Positions 4,786 to 33,896 of a stretch of 38,733 nt of DNA are shown one piece after another (positions within the stretch are counted from its first letter, which is position 1; each line of letters begins with the position of its first letter). The notes beneath the pieces were generated by a model, which worked only from the letters and a program-made list of their open reading frames with translations, was not told the DNA's origin and did not search any database. The position numbers and the translations under genes are program-made. The DNA is from Oceanivirga salmonicida (lineage in GTDB: Bacteria; Fusobacteriota; Fusobacteriia; Fusobacteriales; Leptotrichiaceae). The DNA is taken from the NCBI RefSeq assembly GCF_001517915.1, contig NZ_LOQI01000009.1, forward strand, positions 1-38,733. The letters are read 5' to 3'.

Positions 4786-5571
4786 ATGAATGAATATTTT
4801 GAAAAAGAATTAAATAATTTATTAAAAAAATATGAAGCAAATAATGTACTTTATGAAGCATTTAAGTATTCATTAACTGTTGGTGGTAAAAGAGTAAGAC
4901 CTATGCTAATACTTTTAATGGCTAAAAGTTTAGGAAAAGACTATACTAAGGTTATAGATATAGCGTTAGCCATTGAATTAGTACATAATTATTCGTTAGT
5001 TCATGATGATTTGCCTTGTATGGACAATGATATGTATAGACGGGGTAAACTTACAACTCATGCTAAATATGGAGAATATATAGGGGTATTGGTAGGAGAT
5101 GGTTTACTTACAGAAGCATTTAATGTAATATCTAGTTCTAAAACATTAGAAAATAAGTCTAAAATTATAGAAATACTAAGTAGAAATATAGGTATAAATG
5201 GTATGATATTAGGACAAGTCTTAGATATGAAAAATGCTAATAAAGATATAGATATTAAGACTTTGGAATTAATACACCAAACTAAGACCGCTAATTTAAT
5301 ATCTGCTTGTTTTGAAACAGTTTTAGCAGAATTTAATGTAGAAAATGATAAATATATAACTGTTGCAAATGAATTAGGTATGGTGTATCAAATACAAGAT
5401 GATTTAATGGATTTTTCTAATAAAGATGATAAATCAAACTATGTTAATATTATAGGTATAGAAAAGACAAAAGAAGTTTTAAATGAGAAAATATTAAAAA
5501 TTAGAAATCTTTTAAAAGATGATAAGGAATTGCTATCATATATAGAAAAAATATTTATAAGAAAGGTGTAA
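4786..5571 (+). CDS. ispA: Farnesyl/geranylgeranyl diphosphate synthase, compact form
   Basis: This trans-polyprenyl synthase condenses isopentenyl diphosphate with allylic diphosphates to supply quinone and undecaprenyl precursors. The first aspartate-rich motif is in VHDDLPCMDND followed by RRGKLTTH; the second is QIQDDLMDF. The YSLVHDDLPCMD spacing, with two residues inserted in the motif, is the bacterial FPPS/GGPPS type. The start at 4786 is preferred over an in-frame ATG at 4774 because GAGGA lies five bases before it; the result is 261 residues, against 290-300 in most relatives. Much of the shortening is after the second motif, where the usual loop with GK and GSD residues is missing and the protein passes straight to NYVNIIGIEK. 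Exact chain length cannot be told. Confidence 0.88.
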   Translation: MNEYFEKELNNLLKKYEANNVLYEAFKYSLTVGGKRVRPMLILLMAKSLGKDYTKVIDIALAIELVHNYSLVHDDLPCMDNDMYRRGKLTTHAKYGEYIGVLVGDGLLTEAFNVISSSKTLENKSKIIEILSRNIGINGMILGQVLDMKNANKDIDIKTLELIHQTKTANLISACFETVLAEFNVENDKYITVANELGMVYQIQDDLMDFSNKDDKSNYVNIIGIEKTKEVLNEKILKIRNLLKDDKELLSYIEKIFIRKV

Positions 5572-13052: not shown

Positions 13053-14831
13053 ATGAAAAATTTTTTATTGAAAAGTGTAACAGGATTAATGTTATTTTCA
13101 CTTATTGCCTGTGGACCAGGGGAGAGAAGAAAAGCGGAAGAAATTAATACAACTTTATTTCCATCAGAATGGAAATCTGATAAGGAAGCTATAGAAGGTG
13201 GGACATTAAAAATAGCTGTAGTATCAGATAATCCTTTTAAAGGTATATTTTCACCAGTATTATATCAAGATAGTACTGATAGTACTTTATTCATAACTAA
13301 AATATCACCAGAAATATTTTGGAATAATGCTGATTTTAATCTTATAGATGGTGGAATGGCTAATGTAAAATTAGATGTTGATAATAAGGTTATAACTGTT
13401 AAAATAAGAGAAGGATTGAAGTGGGAAGATGGAAATCCAATAACGGTTGATGACTATATTTTTGGTGCTGAAATCATAGGACATAAGGACTATACTGGGG
13501 TTAGATATAGTGATGGTATTAGAAATATAGTTGGAATGGAAGAATACCACAAAGGAATGGCAAAAACTATAAAAGGATTTGAAAAAATAAGTGATACTGA
13601 ATTAAAAATACATGTTAAAGTAGCAAAGCCTGAAATACTAACTGGAGGAGGAGGTCTAACTGGTTATTTTGTACCTAAACATTATCTAAAAGATATAGCA
13701 ATTAAAGATTTAGAACAATCTGATAGAGTAAGATTAAAACCATTATCTTATGGACCATATAAAGTGAGTCAAATTATACCAGGTGAAAGTATAGAATATG
13801 TAGTAAATGAAAACTATTATGATAAAGAACATATGCCAAAAGTGGACAAATTAATAATGAAAATATTACCATCAAGTTCTGTTATTAAATCAATGGAAAT
13901 TGGAGAATATGATTTTTATTATTATGTTGCATCTGCATCATATAAATTATATAAAGATTTTGATAATTTAAAAGTTGTAGGGACTCCATCAGCAAGTTAT
14001 GTATATGTTGGATTTAATTTAGGATATTGGGATGAAAAGAAAAAAGAAAATGTAGTAGATCCAAATAAAAAAATGGCAGATATAAGATTGAGAAAAGCAA
14101 TGGGATATGCTTTAGATATGAATAAAATTCTAACACAATTTTTTGAAGGATTAAAACAAAAAGCTAATTCACCTATACCACCAATATTTTCACAATACTA
14201 TAATCCTAAACCTAGATATGATTATGATTTAGAAAAAGCTAATGCTTTATTAGATGAAGCAGGTTATAAAGATATTGATGGAGATGGAATAAGAGAAGGA
14301 AAAGATGGAAAACCATTTGTAATTGAAATGGCATTTGGAGATTCTGAAATAGCTGAAGAATTATCAACACAATTTATACAAGACTGGGCAAAAGTAGGAC
14401 TAAAAGTAGAACTTGCAACAGGTAGACTTATGGGGAATAACTTTTTCCCAACAGTAGAGTCTAATAAAGGTTATGATATATGGTTAGCTAGTTGGGGAGT
14501 AGGAACAGCATTAGATTTCTCAAGTGTATATGGTAAAACTGCTAAATTTAATTTTGCTCGTATAACAGATGAAAAAAATGAAGAATTAATTAGAAAAACT
14601 TCTTCACTAGAAGCTGTAAAAGATCTAGAATATAGAAAGAAAGCAATATTAGAGTGGGAAGATAACTATATGGAAAATGTATTAGGATTTTTACCTATAT
14701 GGTATAGTTACACTTTATACCCAGTAAATAAGAGATATAAAGAATTTACTACAACAAACGATAATAGAGAAGAAGTAAAATTCGTAGATGCCTTAACACA
14801 AAAAGAACCGATAGCAGCTACGGTCAAATAA
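13053..14831 (+). CDS. oppA: Peptide-binding lipoprotein, paralog 1 (SBP family 5)
   Basis: An extracytoplasmic receptor that delivers peptides to OppBCDF. The N-terminus has a basic start, a hydrophobic core and the lipobox LIAC with C20, so it is lipid-anchored. The mature part (592 residues in total) contains SBP_bac_5 signatures: VKIREGLKWEDGNPITVDD, LKPLSYGPYKV, a VGFNLG segment, DIRLRKAMGYALD and LATGRL. An EF-hand-like DIDGDGIRE occurs in AGYKDIDGDGIREGKDG, commonly seen in this family. It shares the identical CGPGERRKA start with the two following genes, and the three align over their whole length. AAAGGAG lies before the ATG. Confidence 0.93.
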   Translation: MKNFLLKSVTGLMLFSLIACGPGERRKAEEINTTLFPSEWKSDKEAIEGGTLKIAVVSDNPFKGIFSPVLYQDSTDSTLFITKISPEIFWNNADFNLIDGGMANVKLDVDNKVITVKIREGLKWEDGNPITVDDYIFGAEIIGHKDYTGVRYSDGIRNIVGMEEYHKGMAKTIKGFEKISDTELKIHVKVAKPEILTGGGGLTGYFVPKHYLKDIAIKDLEQSDRVRLKPLSYGPYKVSQIIPGESIEYVVNENYYDKEHMPKVDKLIMKILPSSSVIKSMEIGEYDFYYYVASASYKLYKDFDNLKVVGTPSASYVYVGFNLGYWDEKKKENVVDPNKKMADIRLRKAMGYALDMNKILTQFFEGLKQKANSPIPPIFSQYYNPKPRYDYDLEKANALLDEAGYKDIDGDGIREGKDGKPFVIEMAFGDSEIAEELSTQFIQDWAKVGLKVELATGRLMGNNFFPTVESNKGYDIWLASWGVGTALDFSSVYGKTAKFNFARITDEKNEELIRKTSSLEAVKDLEYRKKAILEWEDNYMENVLGFLPIWYSYTLYPVNKRYKEFTTTNDNREEVKFVDALTQKEPIAATVK

Positions 14832-15034
14832 GGTAATGATAATTCAATAAAATTTTGTATATGTTATAAATATTTTTTGTAAATGCAAAAGAATATGTTT
14901 TAGGACTCATCTACTAAAAAAAATTCATAAAAAACTACATAATATATTCTTTTAAAAGAGTAAATAATAAAAAATTAGTGTAGATATTATGCAGTAATAT
15001 ACATAATATCTACTACTAAAAAAGGAGAAATATT
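14832..15034. other. Intergenic region with long-range inverted repeat and a 12-bp hairpin
   Basis: AAAAGAATAT (14887-14896) pairs perfectly with ATATTCTTTT (14944-14953) across 47 bases, followed by TTTAAAAG rather than a clean T-run. Closer to the second binding-protein gene, GTAGATATTATG (14980-14991) and CATAATATCTAC (15002-15013) form a perfect 12-bp stem with a 10-base loop, ending about eight bases before AAAGGAG. No consensus promoter and no coding sequence were seen. The second hairpin is well placed to protect or process the mRNA 5' end. Confidence 0.5.
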
Positions 15035-16810
15035 ATGAAAAAGAATTTATTAAAAAGTTTAATCACTTTACTTTTATTTTCAGTTATTGCATGTGGACCA
15101 GGGGAAAGAAGAAAAGCAGAAGAAATCAATAAAACTTCATTTCTAACTGAATGGAAATCAGATAAGGAAGCCATAAAAGGCGGAACTTTAAAAGTTGCTA
15201 TAGTTTCAGATACTCCTTTTAAAGCTATATTTTCACCGGTATTATGGACAGAGAGTACTGATTTTGAACTTTCTAGAAGAATACATCCAGAAATATTTTG
15301 GAAAAATGCAGATTTTGACCTTATAGATGGTGGATATGCTAATATGAAATTAGATGTTGATAATAAGGTTATAATTGTAACATTAAGAGAAGGTCTAAAA
15401 TGGTCAGATGGTCATCCATTGACTGTTGATGACTTAATTTATGCATATGAACTTATAGGTCATAAAGATTATACAGGTGTTAGATACAATGATGGAATGA
15501 GAAATGTTGTAGGGATGGAAGAATACCGTAAAGGTCTTGCCAAAACTATAGAAGGTCTTGAAAAAGTAAGTGATACTGAATTAAGAGTGCATGTTAAAGA
15601 AGCTCAACCTGAAATCTTAAGAGGTGGTGGCGGTTTATACGCACAATTTGTTCCTAAACATTATTTAAAAGATATAGCAATACAAGATTTAGAATCTTCT
15701 GATGAAGTTAGATTGAAACCATTATCTTATGGACCATATAAGATTACTCAAATAATACCTGGAGAAAGTGTTGAATATGTTCCAAATGAATATTATTATG
15801 ATAAAGAACATATGCCTATGGTAGAAAGTTTAGTTATAAAAATATTACCTTCAAGTTCAGTTGTTAAATCAATGGAAGTAGGAGAATTTGATACATATAT
15901 AGGTGTTGCAGCAGCATCATATAAATTATATAAAGATTTTGATAATTTGGTAGTTTTAGGAAGTCCATCAGTTAGTTATACATATGTTGGATTTAATCTA
16001 GGACATTGGGATGATAAGAAAAAAGAAAATGTTGTAGACCCAGATAAGAAAATGGCAGATATAAGATTAAGAAAAGCTATGGCTTATTCACTTAATGTTA
16101 GAGAGATAACTCAACAATTTTATGAAGGATTAAGAGAAAAGGCTAATTCACCTGTACCACCAATATTTTCTAGTTATCATGATTCAAAGCCTAGATATGA
16201 ATATGACCTAGAAAAAGCCAATGCTTTATTAGATGAAGCAGGTTATAAAGATATTGATGGAGATGGAATAAGAGAAGATAAAAACGGTAAACCATTTGTA
16301 ATTGAAATGGCATTTGGTATTTCTGAAATATCTGAAGAATTATCAAAAAAATTTATGCAAGATTGGGCAAAAGTTGGATTAAAAGTAGAGCTTGCAACAG
16401 GTAGACTTATGGGGAATAATTTTTTCCCAACAATACAATCTAATAAGGGCTATGATATATATATAGCTGCTTGGACTGTAGGAACAATATTAGACTTTTC
16501 AGAATTTTATGGTAGAAAGGCTAGATTTAATTTTGCTCGTATAGCAAGTGAAAAAAATGATGAATTGATAGCCAAAACATCTTCATTAGAAGCAGCAAAA
16601 GATTTAGAGTATAGAAAACAAGCAATATTAGAATGGCAAGATAATTATATGGAAAATGAATTAGGATTTTTACCTATAATGTTCGGTTATGTTTTATCTC
16701 CTATAAATAAGAGATATAAAGAAGTAAGTACAACAAATGATGATAGAGAAGCAGCTAATTTTATAGATGCATTAACACAAACTGAACCATTACCAGCAAC
16801 TAATAAATAG
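15035..16810 (+). CDS. Peptide-binding lipoprotein, paralog 2 (SBP family 5)
   Basis: A second full-length receptor of 591 residues with lipobox VIAC (C20) and the same CGPGERRKAEEIN start as paralog 1, to which it is the closer relative of the pair formed with paralog 3. Conserved blocks are LREGLKWSDGHPLTVDD, LKPLSYGPYKITQIIPGESVEYV, SPVPPIFSSYHDSKPRYEYDLEKAN, DIDGDGIRE and LATGRLMGNNFFPT. Differences concentrate in segments expected to line the ligand pocket, such as EFDTYIGVAAASYKLY and AAWTVGTILDFSEFYGRKARF, so it may prefer other peptides. AAAAGGAG lies just ahead of the ATG; a terminator follows. Confidence 0.92.
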   Translation: MKKNLLKSLITLLLFSVIACGPGERRKAEEINKTSFLTEWKSDKEAIKGGTLKVAIVSDTPFKAIFSPVLWTESTDFELSRRIHPEIFWKNADFDLIDGGYANMKLDVDNKVIIVTLREGLKWSDGHPLTVDDLIYAYELIGHKDYTGVRYNDGMRNVVGMEEYRKGLAKTIEGLEKVSDTELRVHVKEAQPEILRGGGGLYAQFVPKHYLKDIAIQDLESSDEVRLKPLSYGPYKITQIIPGESVEYVPNEYYYDKEHMPMVESLVIKILPSSSVVKSMEVGEFDTYIGVAAASYKLYKDFDNLVVLGSPSVSYTYVGFNLGHWDDKKKENVVDPDKKMADIRLRKAMAYSLNVREITQQFYEGLREKANSPVPPIFSSYHDSKPRYEYDLEKANALLDEAGYKDIDGDGIREDKNGKPFVIEMAFGISEISEELSKKFMQDWAKVGLKVELATGRLMGNNFFPTIQSNKGYDIYIAAWTVGTILDFSEFYGRKARFNFARIASEKNDELIAKTSSLEAAKDLEYRKQAILEWQDNYMENELGFLPIMFGYVLSPINKRYKEVSTTNDDREAANFIDALTQTEPLPATNK

Positions 16811-16822
16811 ATTATTATAATT

Positions 16823-16861
16823 AAAGCCTGCATGATATATATCAAAAAAATGTAGGCTTTT
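16823..16861 (+). terminator. Rho-independent terminator after paralog 2
   Basis: AAAGCCTGCAT (16823-16833) and ATGTAGGCTTT (16850-16860) form an 11-bp stem with one G-U pair around a 16-base A-rich loop, ending in TTTTG. It should separate the first two binding-protein genes from the third. Confidence 0.7.
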
Positions 16862-16877
16862 GTGGCATATAAAAAAA

Positions 16878-16955
16878 ATTAAATTAATAATGTAAATTAA
16901 TAATGCAAGTTAATAATATAAACTAATAGTGTAAATTAATAATGTAAGTTAATAT
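16878..16955 (+). repeat. Six imperfect tandem copies of a 13-bp unit upstream of paralog 3
   Basis: The unit TGTAAATTAATAA occurs exactly at 16891-16903 and 16930-16942. Variants fill 16904-16916, 16917-16929 and 16943-16955 (one to four changes each), and a first copy at 16878-16890 differs at the start. The array ends about four bases before the AAAAGGAG of the third binding-protein gene. It is too short and lacks spacers to be CRISPR. Copy-number change would alter promoter spacing or leader length. Confidence 0.85.
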
Positions 16956-16971
16956 AAAAGGAGAAATAAAT

Positions 16972-18762
16972 ATGAAAAAAAATTTATTAAAAGGACTAAC
17001 AGGTTTACTGTTATGCTCACTTATTGCCTGTGGACCAGGTGAAAGAAGAAAAGCAACGACAACAGATAAATCGTTATTTCCAATAGAATATGTTTCAGAT
17101 AAAGAAACGATAAACGGTGGGACTGCTAAAATAGCTGTAGTTAGTGAACAACCATTTAAAGGAGTACTATTAACTCCTTTATATCAAGATGCAAATGATT
17201 TTATATTCTTAGAACCAATTGCACCAAATCTATTTTGGTCTGACGGAGATTTTAATGTTATAGATGGTGGAATACTTAATCTTAAATTTGATGCCGACAA
17301 TAAAGTTATAACTGTTAAAATAGCAGACGGAGCTAAATGGGAAGATGGACAACCTGTAACTGCAGATGACTATATTTATAGTTATGAAATTGTAGGGAAC
17401 AAAGATTATACAGGTATTAGATATGATGATGGATTTAGAAATGTAGTGGGTATGGAAGAATACCATAAAGGAAAAGCAAAAACTATAACAGGGCTTGAAA
17501 AAGTAAGTGATAATGAAATAAAAATTCATGTTAAAGAAGCTAAGCCTACAATACTATTAGGAGAAGGTGGAGTATCATCATTTTTAGTACCTAAGCATTA
17601 TTTAAAAGATATACCTATAAAAGATTTAGAACAATCTAATAAAGTTAGATTAAAACCATTATCATATGGACCATATAAGATAAGTCAAATTATACCGGGA
17701 GAAAGTATAGAATATACAGTAAACGAAAATTACTATAATAAAGCAAATATGCCAAAGGTAGAAAAATTAGTAATAAAGATTTTACCAACAAGCTCTCTTA
17801 TCTCATCTATGAGAAATGGAGAATATGATATATATAGACAAGTTTTAGCAGATACATATAAAGGGTACAAAGATCTTGATAATATAGCAGTTGTGGGAAG
17901 ACAAGCATTATATTATCAATATTTAGGATTTAATTTAGGACATTGGGATAATGAAAAGAAAATTGGAGTAGTAGATCCAGATAAGAAAATGTCAGATATA
18001 AGATTAAGAAAAGCAATGGCTTATGCTATGAATATGGATGAAGTTGCAACTCAATTTTATGATGGATTAAGAGAAAAAGCAAATTCGCCTATACCGCCAG
18101 TATTTTCTAAATATCATGATGCAAAACCTAGATATGAATATAATGTAGAAAAAGCAAATGCTTTATTAGATGAAGCAGGTTATAAAGATATAGATGGAGA
18201 TGGAATAAGAGAAGATAAAGATGGAAAACCTTTTGTAATTTATATGGCTTTCCCAGCATATGATATAGCACAAGAATTATCACAACAATATATACAATAT
18301 TGGGCAAAGGTTGGATTAAAAGTAGAACTTGCAACAGGTAGATTAATGGGTTCTAATTTCTTCCCAACTATAGAATCTAATAAGGGTTATGACATTTTCG
18401 TTGCAGCTTGGAATGTAGGAACTGCACTTGAATTAAGTGGATTATATGGTAAAACAGCTAAATTTAATCATACTCGTATGTCAAGTGATAAAAATGAAGA
18501 ATTACTTCTAAAGACTAATTCATTAGAAGCGATTAAAGACCCAGAATATAAAGTGAAGGCTATAAGAGAATGGGAAGAAAATTATATGGAAAATGTACTA
18601 GGATTTTTACCAATATTATTTAAATATGAATTATTCCCAGTAAATAAGAGATTAAATGGTTATAATGTAAATCATGATAGTAGAGAATCATCAAAATATG
18701 CAGATGGATTAACATTTACAGGTGGATTAACACAAAAAGAACCATTAGCAGCAACTAAATAA
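16972..18762 (+). CDS. Peptide-binding lipoprotein, paralog 3 (SBP family 5)
   Basis: The third receptor, 596 residues, lipobox LIAC with C20 and the shared CGPGERRKA start. It is the most divergent of the three: EIVGNKDYTG replaces ELIGHKDYTG, the pocket region has SMRNGEYDIYRQVLADTYKGYKDL, and the C-terminus carries an insertion (FTGGLTQKEPLAATK). SBP_bac_5 blocks WEDGQPVTADDYIY, LKPLSYGPYKISQ, DIRLRKAMAYAMN and DIDGDGIRE are intact. It lies behind a terminator and a 13-bp tandem array, so it may be expressed separately from paralogs 1 and 2. A strong terminator follows. Confidence 0.92.
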   Translation: MKKNLLKGLTGLLLCSLIACGPGERRKATTTDKSLFPIEYVSDKETINGGTAKIAVVSEQPFKGVLLTPLYQDANDFIFLEPIAPNLFWSDGDFNVIDGGILNLKFDADNKVITVKIADGAKWEDGQPVTADDYIYSYEIVGNKDYTGIRYDDGFRNVVGMEEYHKGKAKTITGLEKVSDNEIKIHVKEAKPTILLGEGGVSSFLVPKHYLKDIPIKDLEQSNKVRLKPLSYGPYKISQIIPGESIEYTVNENYYNKANMPKVEKLVIKILPTSSLISSMRNGEYDIYRQVLADTYKGYKDLDNIAVVGRQALYYQYLGFNLGHWDNEKKIGVVDPDKKMSDIRLRKAMAYAMNMDEVATQFYDGLREKANSPIPPVFSKYHDAKPRYEYNVEKANALLDEAGYKDIDGDGIREDKDGKPFVIYMAFPAYDIAQELSQQYIQYWAKVGLKVELATGRLMGSNFFPTIESNKGYDIFVAAWNVGTALELSGLYGKTAKFNHTRMSSDKNEELLLKTNSLEAIKDPEYKVKAIREWEENYMENVLGFLPILFKYELFPVNKRLNGYNVNHDSRESSKYADGLTFTGGLTQKEPLAATK

Positions 18763-27669: not shown

Positions 27670-28407
27670 ATGAAAAAAGTTGCGGCATTTTTTGATGTAG
27701 ATGGGACAATTTTTAGAAATTCATTACTTATAGAGCATTTTAAATTATTAATATCATATAAGTTTTTAAGTTATGATGCTTGGTATATATCTGTTGAAGA
27801 TAAGTTTGAAAAATGGAGTAAGCGTGAAGGTGATTATGAAGAGTATTTATATGCTCTCACAGATCAATATGTTGAAGGCTTAAAGAAAATGAATATAGAA
27901 GACGTAGATTATATAGCTAAAAGAGTAATTGAACTTAAAGGAGATAACGTATATAAATATACAAAAGATAGAATAAAATATCATAAAGAGCAAGGTCATG
28001 AGATAGTAATAATATCAGGAAGTCCTAGCTTTTTAGTGAGTAAAATGGCAAAAAAATTGGGAATAGATAATTATTATGCAACTAAATATATAGTAAAAGA
28101 TAATAAATACACAGGGGAAGTTATACCTATGTGGGATAGTGTTAGTAAAAACAAAGCAGTATCCGAATTTATAGCAAAAAAAGATATAGATTTATCTAAA
28201 TCATACGCTTATGGAGATACAACAGGGGATTTTTCTATGTTTAAATTAGTAGGTTATCCTATTGCATTAAATCCAGCAAAAAGATTATTAAATAAAATAA
28301 TTGCAGATAATGAAGTATCTAAAAAAGCAAAAATAATAATAGAAAGAAAAGATGTTATATACAATCTTAAAGCAAATCAAATAGAATATAACAGGGAGGA
28401 AATATGA
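27670..28407 (+). CDS. HAD-superfamily subfamily IB phosphatase
   Basis: A 245-residue phosphatase of the SerB-like HAD-IB group. Motif I is FFDVDGTIF with nucleophile D9 and acid D11, motif II is IISGSPSFLV, a conserved lysine lies in DSVSKNKAV, and motif III is YAYGDTTGDFSMFKLVG. This set is complete, so the protein should be active; substrates of this group include phosphoserine and lipid-linked phosphates and cannot be chosen here. AGGTGA is seven bases before the ATG. Its stop overlaps the ABC-F start by ATGA, implying coupled translation. Confidence 0.88.
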   Translation: MKKVAAFFDVDGTIFRNSLLIEHFKLLISYKFLSYDAWYISVEDKFEKWSKREGDYEEYLYALTDQYVEGLKKMNIEDVDYIAKRVIELKGDNVYKYTKDRIKYHKEQGHEIVIISGSPSFLVSKMAKKLGIDNYYATKYIVKDNKYTGEVIPMWDSVSKNKAVSEFIAKKDIDLSKSYAYGDTTGDFSMFKLVGYPIALNPAKRLLNKIIADNEVSKKAKIIIERKDVIYNLKANQIEYNREEI

Positions 28408-29996
28408 TACAAACGAGTAATTTATCTGTACAGTACGGAGGTAGAAAATTATTTGATGATGTAAATGTAAAATTTTTACAAGGTAATTGTTATGGAATAA
28501 TAGGAGCAAATGGTGCAGGGAAATCAACATTTTTAAAAATACTTATAGGAGAAATTGACTCAACAACTGGTGAAGTTATAATTGATAAAGGTAAAAGAGT
28601 ATCATTTTTAAAACAAGATCACTTTGCTTATGAAGAAGAAACTGTATTAGATGTAGTAATAATGGGGCATAAAAAATTATGTGAAGTAATGAAAAAAAGA
28701 GATGAACTATATCAAAAAACAGAATTTAGTGAAGAAGATGGTATGTTGGCAGCCGAATTAGAAGGAGAATTTGCAGAATTAGATGGTTGGGATGCTGAAA
28801 CAAATGCTGAAAAAATATTAGTAGGATTGGGTATACCTATTTCTGAACATTCTAAAAAAATGAGTAATTTAATGGAATCTGATAAAGTTAAAGTATTATT
28901 AGCACAAGCTATATTTGGAAACCCTGATATACTTTTATTAGATGAGCCTACAAATGGACTGGATTTAAAAGCAACAACTTGGCTTGAAAACTTTTTGATG
29001 GATTTAGAAAATACTACTGTATTAGTTGTATCGCATGACAGACATTTTTTAAATAAAGTATGTACTCATATAGCAGATATAGATTATGGTAAGATAAAAA
29101 TATTTGTTGGAAACTATAATTTCTGGTATGAATCAAGTCAAATAGTACAAGAATTATTGAGAAATCAAAATAAAAAAGTAGAACAAAAGCGTAAAGAATT
29201 ACAAGAATTTATAGCAAGATTTTCTGCTAATGCTTCTAAATCAAAACAAGCAACTAGTAGAAAAAAACAACTTGAAAAATTACAACTTGAAGATATGCAA
29301 GTATCTAATAGAAAATATCCATGGATTGATTTTAAAGCAGATAGAGAAGCAGGAAATAATATGCTTACAGTATCCAATATATGTAAAACAATAAATGGAG
29401 AAAAGGTGTTAAATAATGTTAGTTTTACTATAAATACAGGAGAAAAAGCAGTATTTATAAGTGAAAATGATTTAGCAATAACAACTTTATTTAAAATTTT
29501 AGTTGGAGAAGAAGAAGCCGATAGCGGAACTTTTGAATGGGGAGTAACAACTTCTAGATCATATTTCCCGAAAGATAATAATGAATTTTTTGAAAATATT
29601 GATTTAAGTCTTATAGATTGGTTAAGGCAATATTCAATGGATCAACATGAAGAATATATTAGGGGTTATCTGGGAAGAATGTTATTTTCAGGAGAAGAAG
29701 CTAGAAAAAAAGCCAAAGTTTTATCAGGTGGAGAAAAAGTTAGATGCATGTTATCAAGAATGATGTTGTCAGGTGCTAATGTGTTGGTATTAGATAATCC
29801 AACAGATCACCTAGATTTAGAATCTATAACATCACTTAATAAAGCACTAATGAGATTCCCTGAAACTATTTTATTCACTACTAAAGATCATGAATTTAAT
29901 GAAACAGTTTCAAATAAGATAATAGATATTAAAGAAGATGGAGTTGTAGAGAAATTATGTACTTATGACGAGTATATGTTTAATGATGATAAATAG
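28404..29996 (+). CDS. ABC-F protein (YbiT/YkpA-like) with one degenerate ATP site
   Basis: ABC-F proteins bind the ribosomal E site and act on translation. The 530-residue length and FGNPDILLLDEPTNGLD region match the YbiT/YkpA group. NBD1 has intact Walker A (GANGAGKST, K40), Walker B with E181, and H211; NBD2 has an intact signature LSGGE (440-444). The other composite site is altered: NBD1 signature reads LMESDK (156-161) in place of the expected L-x-GGEK, NBD2 Walker A has I359 where lysine is expected (SENDLAITT), Walker B reads LDNPT with N465 in place of the catalytic Glu, and K494 replaces the H-loop His. The linker (about 240-310) is lysine-rich and helical as expected for the ribosome-reaching arm. 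The start overlaps the phosphatase stop. Confidence 0.9.
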   Translation: MIQTSNLSVQYGGRKLFDDVNVKFLQGNCYGIIGANGAGKSTFLKILIGEIDSTTGEVIIDKGKRVSFLKQDHFAYEEETVLDVVIMGHKKLCEVMKKRDELYQKTEFSEEDGMLAAELEGEFAELDGWDAETNAEKILVGLGIPISEHSKKMSNLMESDKVKVLLAQAIFGNPDILLLDEPTNGLDLKATTWLENFLMDLENTTVLVVSHDRHFLNKVCTHIADIDYGKIKIFVGNYNFWYESSQIVQELLRNQNKKVEQKRKELQEFIARFSANASKSKQATSRKKQLEKLQLEDMQVSNRKYPWIDFKADREAGNNMLTVSNICKTINGEKVLNNVSFTINTGEKAVFISENDLAITTLFKILVGEEEADSGTFEWGVTTSRSYFPKDNNEFFENIDLSLIDWLRQYSMDQHEEYIRGYLGRMLFSGEEARKKAKVLSGGEKVRCMLSRMMLSGANVLVLDNPTDHLDLESITSLNKALMRFPETILFTTKDHEFNETVSNKIIDIKEDGVVEKLCTYDEYMFNDDK

Positions 29997-30023
29997 GCCT
30001 TTTAAAATGAGGGCTTATTTTTT
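29992..30023 (+). terminator. Terminator after the ABC-F gene
   Basis: AATAGGCC (29992-29999), overlapping the TAG stop, pairs with GGCTTATT (30012-30019) with one G-U, and is followed by TTTT. Confidence 0.65.
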
Positions 30024-30262
30024 ATATGATTCTAGAAAAGTTCTAAAACTATTATTTTATATTATTTAGTAATCCAATTATTATATTTTTCCATGTATCA
30101 TAATGTATCGTAGAAATAACTGTAAGTATTTATTGTCATATTATCTATTATTACAAAAAATTAAAATAATATAAGATATGATGAAACATTTTATTTTTAA
30201 AAGATATATTTATACATTTAGAATTTTTAGTTGAATTTATATCATTTCATATTTTCTTTATA
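30024..30262. other. Long AT-rich intergenic region
   Basis: About 240 bases with no ORF above a few codons, no tRNA-like cloverleaf and no recognised RNA motif. Apart from the promoter and dyad at its right end (described separately), nothing identifiable was seen. Confidence 0.6.
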
Positions 30263-30299
30263 TTGATTTTTTTAGTAAATATTAGTATAATATTACTAA
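30263..30299 (+). promoter_or_regulatory. Promoter with a near-perfect dyad over the -10 box
   Basis: TTGATT (30263-30268), 17 bases, TATAAT (30286-30291). TTAGTAAATATT (30272-30283) and AATATTACTAA (30289-30299) form an inverted repeat, perfect except for one extra A, centred on the spacer/-10 region. This is the position of a classical repressor operator. GGAGGA follows at 30302-30307. Confidence 0.6.
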
Positions 30300-30314
30300 G
30301 TAGGAGGAAATATT

Positions 30315-30512
30315 ATGAAAAAAAATATAAAATTATTATTATGTAGTATGTCTAGTATTTTTATAAGTACATCAGTAACTGCAAATGATATTATTAATAA
30401 ATATCCATCTACATTTGAAAAAGATGATAAAATTGCATTAGAAAAAGATTGGAAAAAGGTTGGAAATGATATAAGAAAGGCAATGAACTTGTATGGTAGA
30501 GGAAGTAATTGA
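30315..30512 (+). CDS. Small exported hypothetical protein
   Basis: A 65-residue ORF with the strong site TAGGAGGA eight bases upstream. Residues 1-23 form a signal peptide (basic MKKN, hydrophobic core, cleavage site about SVTA|ND). The mature part, about 42 residues, is charged and amphipathic (ALEKDWKKVGNDIRKAMNLY). No family was recognised. Its last 20 bases overlap the next ORF in another frame. The well-formed promoter, ribosome-binding site and signal peptide argue that it is real. Confidence 0.65.
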   Translation: MKKNIKLLLCSMSSIFISTSVTANDIINKYPSTFEKDDKIALEKDWKKVGNDIRKAMNLYGRGSN

Positions 30513-30897
30513 AAAAGAATCTATAGAAGAAGTTGATGATAATGATACTATTATGACATCAGTTGAAATAACTTATGGACCATTACCATCACCTGATATT
30601 TTATATCAATATAAAAATGTACAGCCTGATGCACCAGATAGAATAATAAAAATGGCAGAATTGCAAACTGAAAATAGAGTAAATATGGAAACAAAAGAGC
30701 AAGAAAATGTTCATAAATTAAGAAATGAACAATCGAGTAGAGAAAATCAAGCACAAGTATTTGCGTTTATATTGTTATTATGTATGGTTTTAGGGAGTCT
30801 TTATTTAATATATGTAGACAAAGAAATTTCTGGATTTATAACCTTGGGAACAACAATAATAACAACAGGTTTAGGTTATTTAATGAGTAGAAAATAA
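30493..30897 (+). CDS. DUF2335 family membrane protein
   Basis: The 134-residue protein shows the DUF2335 pattern: YGPLPSPDILYQYKNVQPDAPDRIIKMAE (in relatives, GPLPPPE-x4-Y and PGAAERIL-MAE), then a polar helix with ENRVNMETKEQENV and RENQAQ, and two membrane segments at about 90-106 and 112-130. The N-terminal 25 residues are acidic. The ATG at 30493 is essentially forced: TGA at 30484-30486 closes the frame upstream. Only AAAGG 12 bases away is available, so it may rely on coupling to the small exported ORF it overlaps. Function of the family is unknown; members are often found in accessory or phage regions. Confidence 0.8.
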   Translation: MVEEVIEKESIEEVDDNDTIMTSVEITYGPLPSPDILYQYKNVQPDAPDRIIKMAELQTENRVNMETKEQENVHKLRNEQSSRENQAQVFAFILLLCMVLGSLYLIYVDKEISGFITLGTTIITTGLGYLMSRK

Positions 30898-30902
30898 TAA
30901 TT

Positions 30903-30931
30903 AAAGACATTGAAAAAAAATGTCTTTTTTG
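30903..30931 (+). terminator. Terminator after the DUF2335 gene
   Basis: AAAGACATT (30903-30911) and AATGTCTTT (30919-30927) form a perfect 9-bp stem around a 7-base loop, followed by TTTG. Confidence 0.8.
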
Positions 30932-30993
30932 TTATAAAGTTTTACATAAATTTAGAAAAAACATATTATTTATTTGTGTATAAATTGTCAAAA

Positions 30994-31023
30994 TTGATTT
31001 TAATATATTCCATATGGTATAAT
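30994..31023 (+). promoter_or_regulatory. uvrA: uvrA operon promoter
   Basis: TTGATT (30994-30999), 18 bases, TATAAT (31018-31023). No LexA-type operator was recognised around it, so SOS control is not supported by what is visible. Confidence 0.55.
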
Positions 31024-31064
31024 ATTCAAATAAAATAAAAATAAATATATAGGTTTGGTGAATA

Positions 31065-33896
31065 ATGGATTATATAAGAATAAAGGGTGCTAGAGAAAAT
31101 AATTTAAAAAATATTTCACTAGATATACCTAAAAATAATATGGTTGTAATAACAGGGGTTTCAGGAAGCGGTAAATCTTCTTTGGCTTTTGATACTATTT
31201 ATTCTGAAGGACAAAGAAGATATGTTGAGAGTTTATCAGCATATGCTAGACAATTTATTGGTCAAATGAAAAAACCTGAATTAGATAGTATAGAAGGATT
31301 ATCTCCTGCAATATCTATTGAGCAAAAAAGTGTATCTAAAAATCCTAGATCTACTGTTGGAACTATGACAGAAGTTTATGATTATATGAGATTATTATGG
31401 GCTCACATAGGTATACCACATTGTCCAGTTTGTAATGAAAATGTTTCAAAAAAATCTATTGATGAAATAGTAAATGACATTATTTTAAAAGCAAATACAA
31501 ATGATAAATTGATAATATTATCACCTGTTGTAAAAGATAGAAAAGGTAGTTTTAAAAATCTATTTTCTAATCTTAAAAAACAAGGATTACAAAGATTACA
31601 AGTAAATGATCTTTTACTAGATTTAGATGATGAAATAGTATTAGATAAAAATAAAAGACATAATATATATGCAATAATAGATAGAATAATAGTAAAAAGA
31701 GAAGATGAAGAACAAGTTTCAAGAATAACAGAAGCTATAGAATTAGCAGCAATAATGTCTAATGGGAATGTAAGTATAGAAATAAATTCTAAAAAATTTG
31801 ATTATTCAGAAAATTTCATATGTCCTAAGCATGAAGATATAACATTTCCTGAAATAGTACCAAGACTGTTTTCTTTTAATGCACCTTTTGGGGCTTGTAA
31901 AACTTGTAATGGTTTAGGTTCTAGTCTTTTAGTTGATGTAAATAAGTTGATATTAGATGAAAATATGCCAATAAATGATGGTGGAGTATATGTTTGTGGT
32001 GGAGCAAGTAAAAGTAGTTGGACTTATAAACTATATTCTGATTTTTTAGCATCTAATAAAATTGATGGAAATAAATCATTTAAAGAATTAACAAAAAATG
32101 AAAAAAATATATTATTATATGGTTCTAATAAAGAATTTGATTTTAATATAAATACAAAAGAATATAATTTTAATGGAAAGAAAAAATTTGATGGTATATA
32201 TGGTCTTACGGTTAGAAGATATAAATATAAAGATGCATTTTCTGAAAAATTTGCTGAAGAATTAGAAAATAAATATATGACAGAAAAAATATGTGAAACT
32301 TGTAATGGAGATAGATTAGAAAATGTTGTTTTAAATATTACCATAAATGATAAAAATATTATAGATATTACTAAACTTAGTATAAATGAAGCATATGATT
32401 TTTTTGAAAGTTTGGTATTAACTGAAAAAGAAGAACATATAGCAAAGGAAATACTAAAAGAAATTAGACAAAGATTAAGTTTTATGGTTAATGTAGGATT
32501 AGATTATTTAAGTATGTCAAGGGGAACTAAGACTTTATCTGGTGGAGAATCACAAAGAATAAGACTTGCAACTCAAATAGGTAGTAAATTAACAGGTGTT
32601 ATATATGTACTAGATGAACCTAGTATAGGCTTACACCAAAGAGATAATGAAAGATTACTTAGTACATTAAAAGAATTAAAAGAGATTGGAAATACTTTAA
32701 TTATAGTAGAACATGATGAAGAAACTATGAGAGAGTGTGATTATTTAATAGATATAGGGCCTGGTGCTGGTAAATTTGGTGGAGAAATCGTTGCTAAGGG
32801 AAGTCCAAAAGAAGTAATGAAAAATTCTAAATCAGTAACGGGGAAATTTTTAAGTGGTAAACTTGAAATACCTATTCCTAAAAAAATAAGAAAATCAAAA
32901 AAATATATAGAATTAAAAAATTGTAAGGGAAATAATCTAAAAAATATATCTATTAAAATACCTAAGGGAACTTTAACAGTAGTTACAGGGGTTTCAGGTA
33001 GTGGTAAAAGTAGTCTTATTAATCAAACTTTATATCCAGCCTTATCAAATAAGATATACAATAGTAGATTATACCCATTAGAATACAAAGAAATAAAAGG
33101 GTTTGAAGATTTAAAAAAGGTTATAAATATAGATCAAAGTCCTATAGGTAGAACACCTCGTTCTAATACAGCTACATATACTAAAATCTTTGATGATATA
33201 AGAGATATATTCGCAAATACAAAAGATGCAAAATTAAGAGGATATAAAAAGGGTAGATTTTCATTTAATGTTAAAGGTGGAAGATGCGAAGCATGTTCTG
33301 GAGCAGGTATAGTAAAAATAGAAATGAATTTTTTACCAGATGTATATGTAGAATGTGAAATATGTAAAGGTAAAAGATATAATAAAGAAACATTAGAAGT
33401 AAAATATAAAAATAAAAATATAGCTGAAGTTTTAAAAATGTCAGTTATAGAAGCATATGAATTTTTTGAAAAAATACCTAATCTTAAAAGAAAATTAAAT
33501 ACTTTAATAGAAGTAGGTATGGACTATATTTCATTAGGGCAAAGTGCAACTACTTTATCAGGTGGAGAAGCACAAAGAATAAAATTATCTAGTGAATTAT
33601 CTAAAATCAGTAATGCTGATACTATATATATATTAGATGAACCTACAACTGGTTTACACTTTGAAGATATACAAAAATTATTAAGTGTTCTTAATAGTTT
33701 GGCAGATAAAGGAAATACTGTAGTTGTGATAGAACATAATCTAGATGTTATAAAATCAGCAGACTATATTATAGATATAGGACCAGAAGGTGGAGACAAA
33801 GGTGGTAATATAGTTGCTACTGGAACTGTAAAAGATATAGCAAAAAATAAAAAATCTCATACAGGTAAATTTTTAAAGAAAATATTAGGAGAATAA
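31065..33896 (+). CDS. uvrA: Excinuclease ABC subunit A
   Basis: UvrA is the damage-recognition ATPase of nucleotide excision repair, working as a dimer with UvrB. The 943 residues have normal length and contain two ABC domains: Walker A GVSGSGKSS near 32-40 and again in the second half, signatures LSGGESQRIRLA and LSGGEAQRIKLS, and Walker B segments VLDEPSIGLH and ILDEPTTGLH. Zinc-finger cysteines are present: CPVC and C-x-KH with CKTCNGLG in the first half, and CEACSGAG with CEICKGKRY in the second. The start ATG follows TTTGGTGA. UvrB and UvrC are not in the window. Confidence 0.98.
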   Translation: MDYIRIKGARENNLKNISLDIPKNNMVVITGVSGSGKSSLAFDTIYSEGQRRYVESLSAYARQFIGQMKKPELDSIEGLSPAISIEQKSVSKNPRSTVGTMTEVYDYMRLLWAHIGIPHCPVCNENVSKKSIDEIVNDIILKANTNDKLIILSPVVKDRKGSFKNLFSNLKKQGLQRLQVNDLLLDLDDEIVLDKNKRHNIYAIIDRIIVKREDEEQVSRITEAIELAAIMSNGNVSIEINSKKFDYSENFICPKHEDITFPEIVPRLFSFNAPFGACKTCNGLGSSLLVDVNKLILDENMPINDGGVYVCGGASKSSWTYKLYSDFLASNKIDGNKSFKELTKNEKNILLYGSNKEFDFNINTKEYNFNGKKKFDGIYGLTVRRYKYKDAFSEKFAEELENKYMTEKICETCNGDRLENVVLNITINDKNIIDITKLSINEAYDFFESLVLTEKEEHIAKEILKEIRQRLSFMVNVGLDYLSMSRGTKTLSGGESQRIRLATQIGSKLTGVIYVLDEPSIGLHQRDNERLLSTLKELKEIGNTLIIVEHDEETMRECDYLIDIGPGAGKFGGEIVAKGSPKEVMKNSKSVTGKFLSGKLEIPIPKKIRKSKKYIELKNCKGNNLKNISIKIPKGTLTVVTGVSGSGKSSLINQTLYPALSNKIYNSRLYPLEYKEIKGFEDLKKVINIDQSPIGRTPRSNTATYTKIFDDIRDIFANTKDAKLRGYKKGRFSFNVKGGRCEACSGAGIVKIEMNFLPDVYVECEICKGKRYNKETLEVKYKNKNIAEVLKMSVIEAYEFFEKIPNLKRKLNTLIEVGMDYISLGQSATTLSGGEAQRIKLSSELSKISNADTIYILDEPTTGLHFEDIQKLLSVLNSLADKGNTVVVIEHNLDVIKSADYIIDIGPEGGDKGGNIVATGTVKDIAKNKKSHTGKFLKKILGE

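Follow-up and report, generated by a model that had tools for sequence, protein, structure and literature searches.

An ABC-F-type ATPase gene (28404-29996) and uvrA (31065-33896) of Oceanivirga salmonicida are separated by two short, overlapping ORFs on the same strand, raising the question of whether these are neighbors by chance or a functional unit and, if the latter, what such a unit might do. The window (the whole stretch of DNA analyzed, 38,733 nucleotides) corresponds to contig C9; the genome measures 1.77 Mb. The upstream ORF (30315-30512, + strand), preceded by a ribosome-binding-like AGGAGG read from the sequence (30303-30308, +), encodes 65 amino acids; the downstream ORF (30493-30897, +) encodes a DUF2335 membrane protein of 134 amino acids. 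The ORF coordinates agree with the first-pass annotation, which had described a 20-base overlap in different frames (30493-30512, +) within a self-contained unit, and both flanking genes are indeed unrelated to DUF2335. No phage genes were recognized, by reading, among the large ORFs of the window, and this copy lies outside a prophage. A search of 29900-31100 for an RNA antitoxin or riboswitch gave no Rfam match at E ≤1. Ancestral synteny at uvrA was sought, and the genes on the 5′ side differ among the relatives compared. Elsewhere in the window (13053-18762), three consecutive genes for oligopeptide-binding-like lipoproteins with near-identical N-termini (MKK/MKN...CGPGERRKA) adjoin a dipeptide/oligopeptide ABC transporter operon.

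The downstream protein matches both Pfam DUF2335 (PF10097; E 1.2e-8, 35.1 bits against a cut-off of 25) and phrog_3996, annotated ‘moron, membrane protein’ (E 7e-24). A structural model built from 56 sequences (pLDDT 90, pTM 0.56) has a disordered N-terminus followed by helices at residues 34-43, 47-107 and 111-133, consistent with the two membrane segments originally assigned to this protein: the 61-residue helix is predicted to begin in the cytoplasm and run into the membrane, where it would form a C-terminal hairpin with the second membrane helix. Near-invariant residues cluster in the segment GPxPPPxxLxxY...RIxxMAE, which the model likewise places in the cytoplasm, on the helix entering the membrane. 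Foldseek comparison of the model with the PDB returned 0 matches, and in a viral structure library only S5WJH0 (E 1.6e-4) and C8CLJ5 (E 3.3e-3) stood above noise. No functional study of DUF2335 was found in the literature searched, most subscription journals and preprints lying outside that search. One published label, ‘DUF2335 (phospholipase)’, is presumably a slip for another DUF number. It occurs in PMC6267618. PMC8809351 lists a gene for DUF2335 in a set of 13 from Dickeya zeae that reportedly influence potato maceration, and gives no mechanism. PdpSau was ruled out as a match, being a different protein of 278 amino acids with one N-terminal helix (PMC10127798).

The upstream protein belongs to no Pfam, NCBIfam or PADLOC family and matches phrog_27385 only weakly (E 3.3e-4). 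We define its family here as a short ORF directly 5′ of DUF2335 on the same strand, with the motifs F..G.a...D and DW..VG.D...A; the window copy qualifies (motif ALEKDWKKVGNDIRKAM), with serine in place of a near-invariant glycine at position 11. Among 48 relatives, Pfam domains were confined to one Panacea domain and one weak WXG100 match, neither of them in the window copy. The fold of the small domain was examined within a natural in-frame ORF (L100), using an alignment of small ORFs only, because MAFFT misplaced these when DUF2335 rows were included; in the resulting AF2 model of the joined ORF (pTM 0.30), a short helix precedes a long, confident helix bearing the DW..VG motif. The in-frame joining of the two ORFs results from a 32-bp insertion in two isolates (L094 and L100) and is not counted as evidence for a fused protein, because the inner ATG is kept.

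This protein had initially been described as exported, with a signal peptide. Its N-terminal 12-residue hydropathy (2.03) falls below that of four exported-looking proteins of the window (2.27-2.97), and across 78 rows of small ORFs, near-duplicates included, values range from -0.15 to 2.23, with 68 of the 78 below 2.0; many relatives also carry charged residues at the N-terminus. On these grounds export is rejected as a feature of the family, a rejection that covers the family and not this single copy. Judged from the sequences, the supposed signal peptide is a conserved glycine-containing segment that appears to lack signal-peptide character in most relatives.

Whether the two ORFs belong together was addressed with a profile built from nine small ORFs of one bacterial family and run, at E ≤0.01, on the 12,850 ORFs of 100 loci. 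It matched 52 ORFs, 51 of which lie directly 5′ of DUF2335 on the same strand. The remaining match is an orphan in genome G028 (L002:1459-1638, +), in which no DUF2335 passed the threshold either nearby or anywhere else; this locus had been retrieved through its small ORF. A pattern scan gathered 59 genome loci from many phyla and 29 viral contigs; the one-family profile alone found a small ORF at 47 of 83 DUF2335 clusters (39/75 outside the eight training loci), rising to 72/83 after iteration on upstream candidates, a partly circular procedure. The other 11 clusters include several with a visibly similar short overlapping ORF (Javan433, for example) and two DUF2335 fragments; phage Purky has no small ORF beside DUF2335. 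Counted from whichever start lies closest to the stop, which biases the measure toward overlap, the 72 pairs overlap by a median of 18.5 nt, and 53 of them share the same relative frame. The distance matrices of the small protein and DUF2335 are correlated (r 0.565; 0/300 permutations), as expected for a co-inherited unit, a correlation that is by itself no proof of binding.

Of the family's 33 genomes, nine carry the small ORF and nine carry DUF2335 (eight above the cut-off), with both adjacent in eight; G028 carries just the small ORF, the DUF2335 of G031 is a broken remnant, and G019, the sole other genome of the genus examined, lacks the pair. Later samples, in which DUF2335 was sought by its Pfam model, yielded it in 11 of 394 genomes of the order of Gilliamella, 10 of 399 of the order of a Nitrosomonas metagenome-assembled genome (MAG), and 2 of 386 of the class containing the L026 genome. 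Once three loci used for training are set aside, an adjacent small-ORF match at E ≤0.01 is present in 15 of 20 new loci (8/10, 6/9 and 1/1), one of them only a partial in-frame chimera, L165. The five misses are L172 (a TIR fusion), L174, and L196, L199 and L200, in which short overlapping ORFs are present below threshold. In the reverse direction, the small-ORF profile was found in nine of the 394 Gilliamella-order genomes, seven of which are listed with DUF2335; of the other two, L179 has a DUF2335 gene split by a frameshift and in L181 the contig breaks off. Seven matches, two of them the same sequence, came from nine additional annotated stretches of phage and E. coli DNA, the misses being proPhi6 and TCUAN1 (E 0.08).

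The small ORF at DUF2335 loci spans about a dozen phyla, the pair occurring in Gram-negative, Gram-positive and candidate-phylum bacteria. Among the observations that would overturn it, the first-pass annotation had named a consistent absence of the small ORF from homologous DUF2335 loci; what was found is the reverse, on each count (51/52, 72/83 and 15/20). That the small ORF is no gene and the two are chance neighbors might be suspected from its shortness, AT-richness and want of a Pfam family; the profile matches at DUF2335, the new loci and the co-inheritance refute this, leaving it a negligible probability. In many phyla and in temperate phages alike, the two genes overlap, are conserved side by side and are inherited together, and we regard it as almost certain that they function as a unit.

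Damaged copies were also collected. DUF2335 is broken and the small ORF intact in G028, in L198 and L202, and in a Gilliamella lineage (L072, L103 and L179), where a frameshift splits DUF2335 and the small ORF stays open. Loss of DUF2335 first, as for a harmful protein, is no more than hinted at by this pattern, because two loci go the other way: the small ORF is damaged and DUF2335 apparently whole in L165, and L174 is without the small ORF. L165 (- strand) is a chimera in which DUF2335 continues in frame from the N-terminal half of the small protein, the half bearing DW..VG being absent.

The control elements initially assigned to the pair fared less well. A candidate sigma-70-type promoter, TTGATT-17-TATAAT (30263-30291, +; 10/12 consensus matches), lies where a shared promoter would be expected and is plausible, yet such sites are not beyond chance, with 25 at 10/12 in the 2.2-kb AT-rich region against 19.8 (sd 3.9) in shuffles. 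The near-perfect dyad said to cover its -10 exists as an imperfect inverted repeat with one bulge, TTAGTAAATATT-AGTAT-AATATTACTAA (30272-30299); it scores 10, a value reached in 21 of 200 dinucleotide shuffles of this segment (mean 7.9), and nothing resembling it was seen 5′ of the small ORF in any of the eight relatives compared. An operator dyad was accordingly rejected, and with it the support for a dyad-covered, regulated promoter. Downstream, a hairpin (AAAGACATT / AATGTCTTT) followed by T6 forms a probable intrinsic terminator (30905-30935, +), acceptable, though not the strong one claimed at first: it is AT-rich, has only two G-C pairs (-9.6 kcal/mol including flanking bases) and was missed by a pattern scan that requires three.

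These promoter-like and terminator-like sites, together with the solitary position between housekeeping genes and a GC content (0.259) matching that of the window (0.260), are what would be expected of a host envelope or stress unit built from a small exported protein and its membrane partner, one of the roles suggested at the outset. We nevertheless consider such a role improbable. A mobile conflict function is more likely, given the patchy distribution of the pair (8/33 family genomes, absent from G019 of the same genus, with DUF2335 similarly sparse in the three later samples) and its frequency in temperate phages; moreover, the N-terminus of the small protein does not resemble a signal peptide in most relatives.

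In phages, the pair follows the lysin in proPhi6 and in Javan433 (at the end of the prophage record), lies between amidase and integrase in E72, precedes the attP-R mark of IME1365_01 by about 0.2 kb, and follows the integrase, opposed to tail genes, in MD8. It opposes the neighboring late genes in EC.W1-9 and BUCT711 and sits among tail genes in RAH1 and TCUAN1; in Purky, DUF2335 only, below the cut-off, is found beside the integrase/repressor region. An Enterobacter plasmid with phage genes also carries the pair, and a copy related to that of EC.W1-9 occurs in 69 of 5,426 complete E. coli genomes. One E. coli locus (L126:1828-5938) has the pair in phage-like surroundings that also encode a YafO-family toxin, and directly 3′ of DUF2335 comes a third small ORF (4896-5057); BUCT711 has a similar small ORF 3′ of the pair, annotated as a transmembrane anchored protein. 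No family, any defense family included, recurs among the neighbors of genome loci (maximum 2/125), where single PADLOC matches include RmrA, RmrT, AbiEi and SoFic; the 114 neighboring proteins of 17 viral loci, ordinary phage genes included, yielded at most two per family.

The frequent location directly 3′ of holin or lysin genes (Javan433, E72, IME1365_01, proPhi6) could point to an antiholin-like factor that times lysis or maintains lysogeny in temperate phages. This we judge very improbable given the opposed orientation to neighboring late genes in Purky, MD8, EC.W1-9 and BUCT711, the location among tail genes in TCUAN1 and RAH1, and the existence of solitary chromosomal copies. Small prophage membrane proteins often act in superinfection exclusion, and the pair's position in temperate phages, close to integrase, lysis genes or att ends, would suit a small membrane complex that blocks the DNA entry of other phages without killing the cell. 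That the same pair is found across very different envelopes and in chromosomal copies outside phages, such as the window copy, argues against such a role, which seems to us rather unlikely; so do two domain fusions, which point to the logic of effector and antitoxin.

The first fusion, in a Chloroflexaceae MAG (L035, 3163-3900, +), comprises a SocA/Panacea antitoxin domain (PF13274, E 4.2e-22) followed by a C-terminal small-ORF domain, with the DUF2335 gene next in order. In the second (L172:1273-2010, -), a TIR domain (PF13676, E 1.6e-25) is joined to DUF2335 (E 5.8e-11); there is no small partner ORF at this locus. The neighboring 119-residue protein (921-1277) looks, by reading, like a two-helix membrane protein. 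Each fusion is a single case. Among the 30 Panacea loci of a 297-genome sample, the best DUF2335 match (E 0.1) was not convincing; plasmids and E. coli yielded no TIR-DUF2335 fusion, and the E. coli Panacea loci that were reached are other than the published PanT_Esc.col. and PanT_Bar.api. The two fusions offer direct hypotheses on how DUF2335 may be wired to known immune domains.

From context, fusions and architecture we infer toxicity and defense, and hence lean, with only slightly better than even confidence, toward a two-gene membrane-effector conflict module, probably of the phage-defense or toxin-antitoxin type. In such a conflict module, the small protein, cytoplasmic or membrane-attached, would be made first, in translation coupled to that of DUF2335, and would bind the cytoplasmic part of its partner, holding the hairpin inactive. 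Infection or another trigger might then disturb the small protein, or make an activator of it, in the way that RexA activates RexB, whereupon DUF2335 would assemble in the cell's own membrane, depolarize it and halt phage production. The original suggestion of a functional pair, possibly in phage defense, is accordingly borne out strongly for the pair (51/52; 15/20) and moderately for defense, its exported protein and dyad-regulated promoter having fallen away.

A broader proposal, which we advance tentatively and hold a little short of even, is that DUF2335 serves bacterial immunity at large as a membrane-killing module to which various sensors or restraints have been coupled (mostly a partner of 60-100 amino acids, sometimes linked to Panacea, sometimes a TIR fusion). 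The window pair would then be a solitary, chromosomal representative of a two-gene phage-defense system that spans phyla and is as yet undescribed. The pair itself is real, widespread and, within the literature searched, undescribed: a family known to Pfam as a ‘predicted membrane protein’ gains a nearly constant small partner that is nameless in Pfam, NCBIfam and PADLOC. Were the two genes an immune switch, they would represent a compact system carried by phages and by the chromosomes of many phyla.

How does this pair compare with systems already described? phrog_3996 and Pfam DUF2335 are the same family as the second gene, and their annotations make no mention of a small partner. Neither protein matched a PADLOC 2.0.0 model, apart from one weak SspB match (E 0.018). 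The layout is that of type II toxin-antitoxin systems (two small adjacent genes, often overlapping), with the 20-nt overlap of the window copy and the 72 pairs examined. Many relatives are separate units inside temperate phages, as expected of prophage morons, whereas the window copy has housekeeping neighbors. TIR-domain defense effectors (PADLOC ThsB, SAVED-TIR) are brought close by L172, which joins TIR to DUF2335; the window pair differs in having neither TIR nor an adjoining nucleotide-signal enzyme. RosmerTA of Gordonia phage Kita (PMC10440598) is also phage-encoded, with a membrane-depolarizing toxin and a shown antiphage effect, but its antitoxin is an ImmA-like protease, which the pair lacks.

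Closer parallels are provided by PanAT and the RexAB-type pairs. Toxins neutralized by Panacea have a charged N-terminus and C-terminal membrane helices and depolarize cells, some of them forming pores (Kurata 2022, PMC8832971; Ernits 2023, PMC10440598); for the Bartonella toxin, contact with Panacea is predicted at the N-terminal region and at a short helix before the membrane region (PMC10440598). PanAT shares with our pair the two adjacent genes, the occurrence in prophages and, in L035, a DUF2335 partner with Panacea, the domain that defines its antitoxin; the small protein of the window has no such domain. RexAB-like prophage pairs (lambda RexAB, Sbash gp30/31, CarolAnn gp43/44, Butters gp30/31) similarly combine, in a temperate phage, a cytoplasmic protein with a membrane effector, and in Sbash the genes are reported to be expressed during lysogeny and both to be needed (PMC7542560; PMC12894663). 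In these pairs the membrane partner has four membrane helices and a DUF4747 motif is common to the cytoplasmic proteins, in contrast to the two helices and the motif-less partner of ~60-100 amino acids (65 in the window) described here. Because the window lacks Panacea, the helices number two and not four, and no RexA/DUF4747-like partner is present, we file the pair with neither group; by analogy, it nonetheless appears to work most like PanAT and the RexAB-type pairs, while being, by their defining features, a member of neither.
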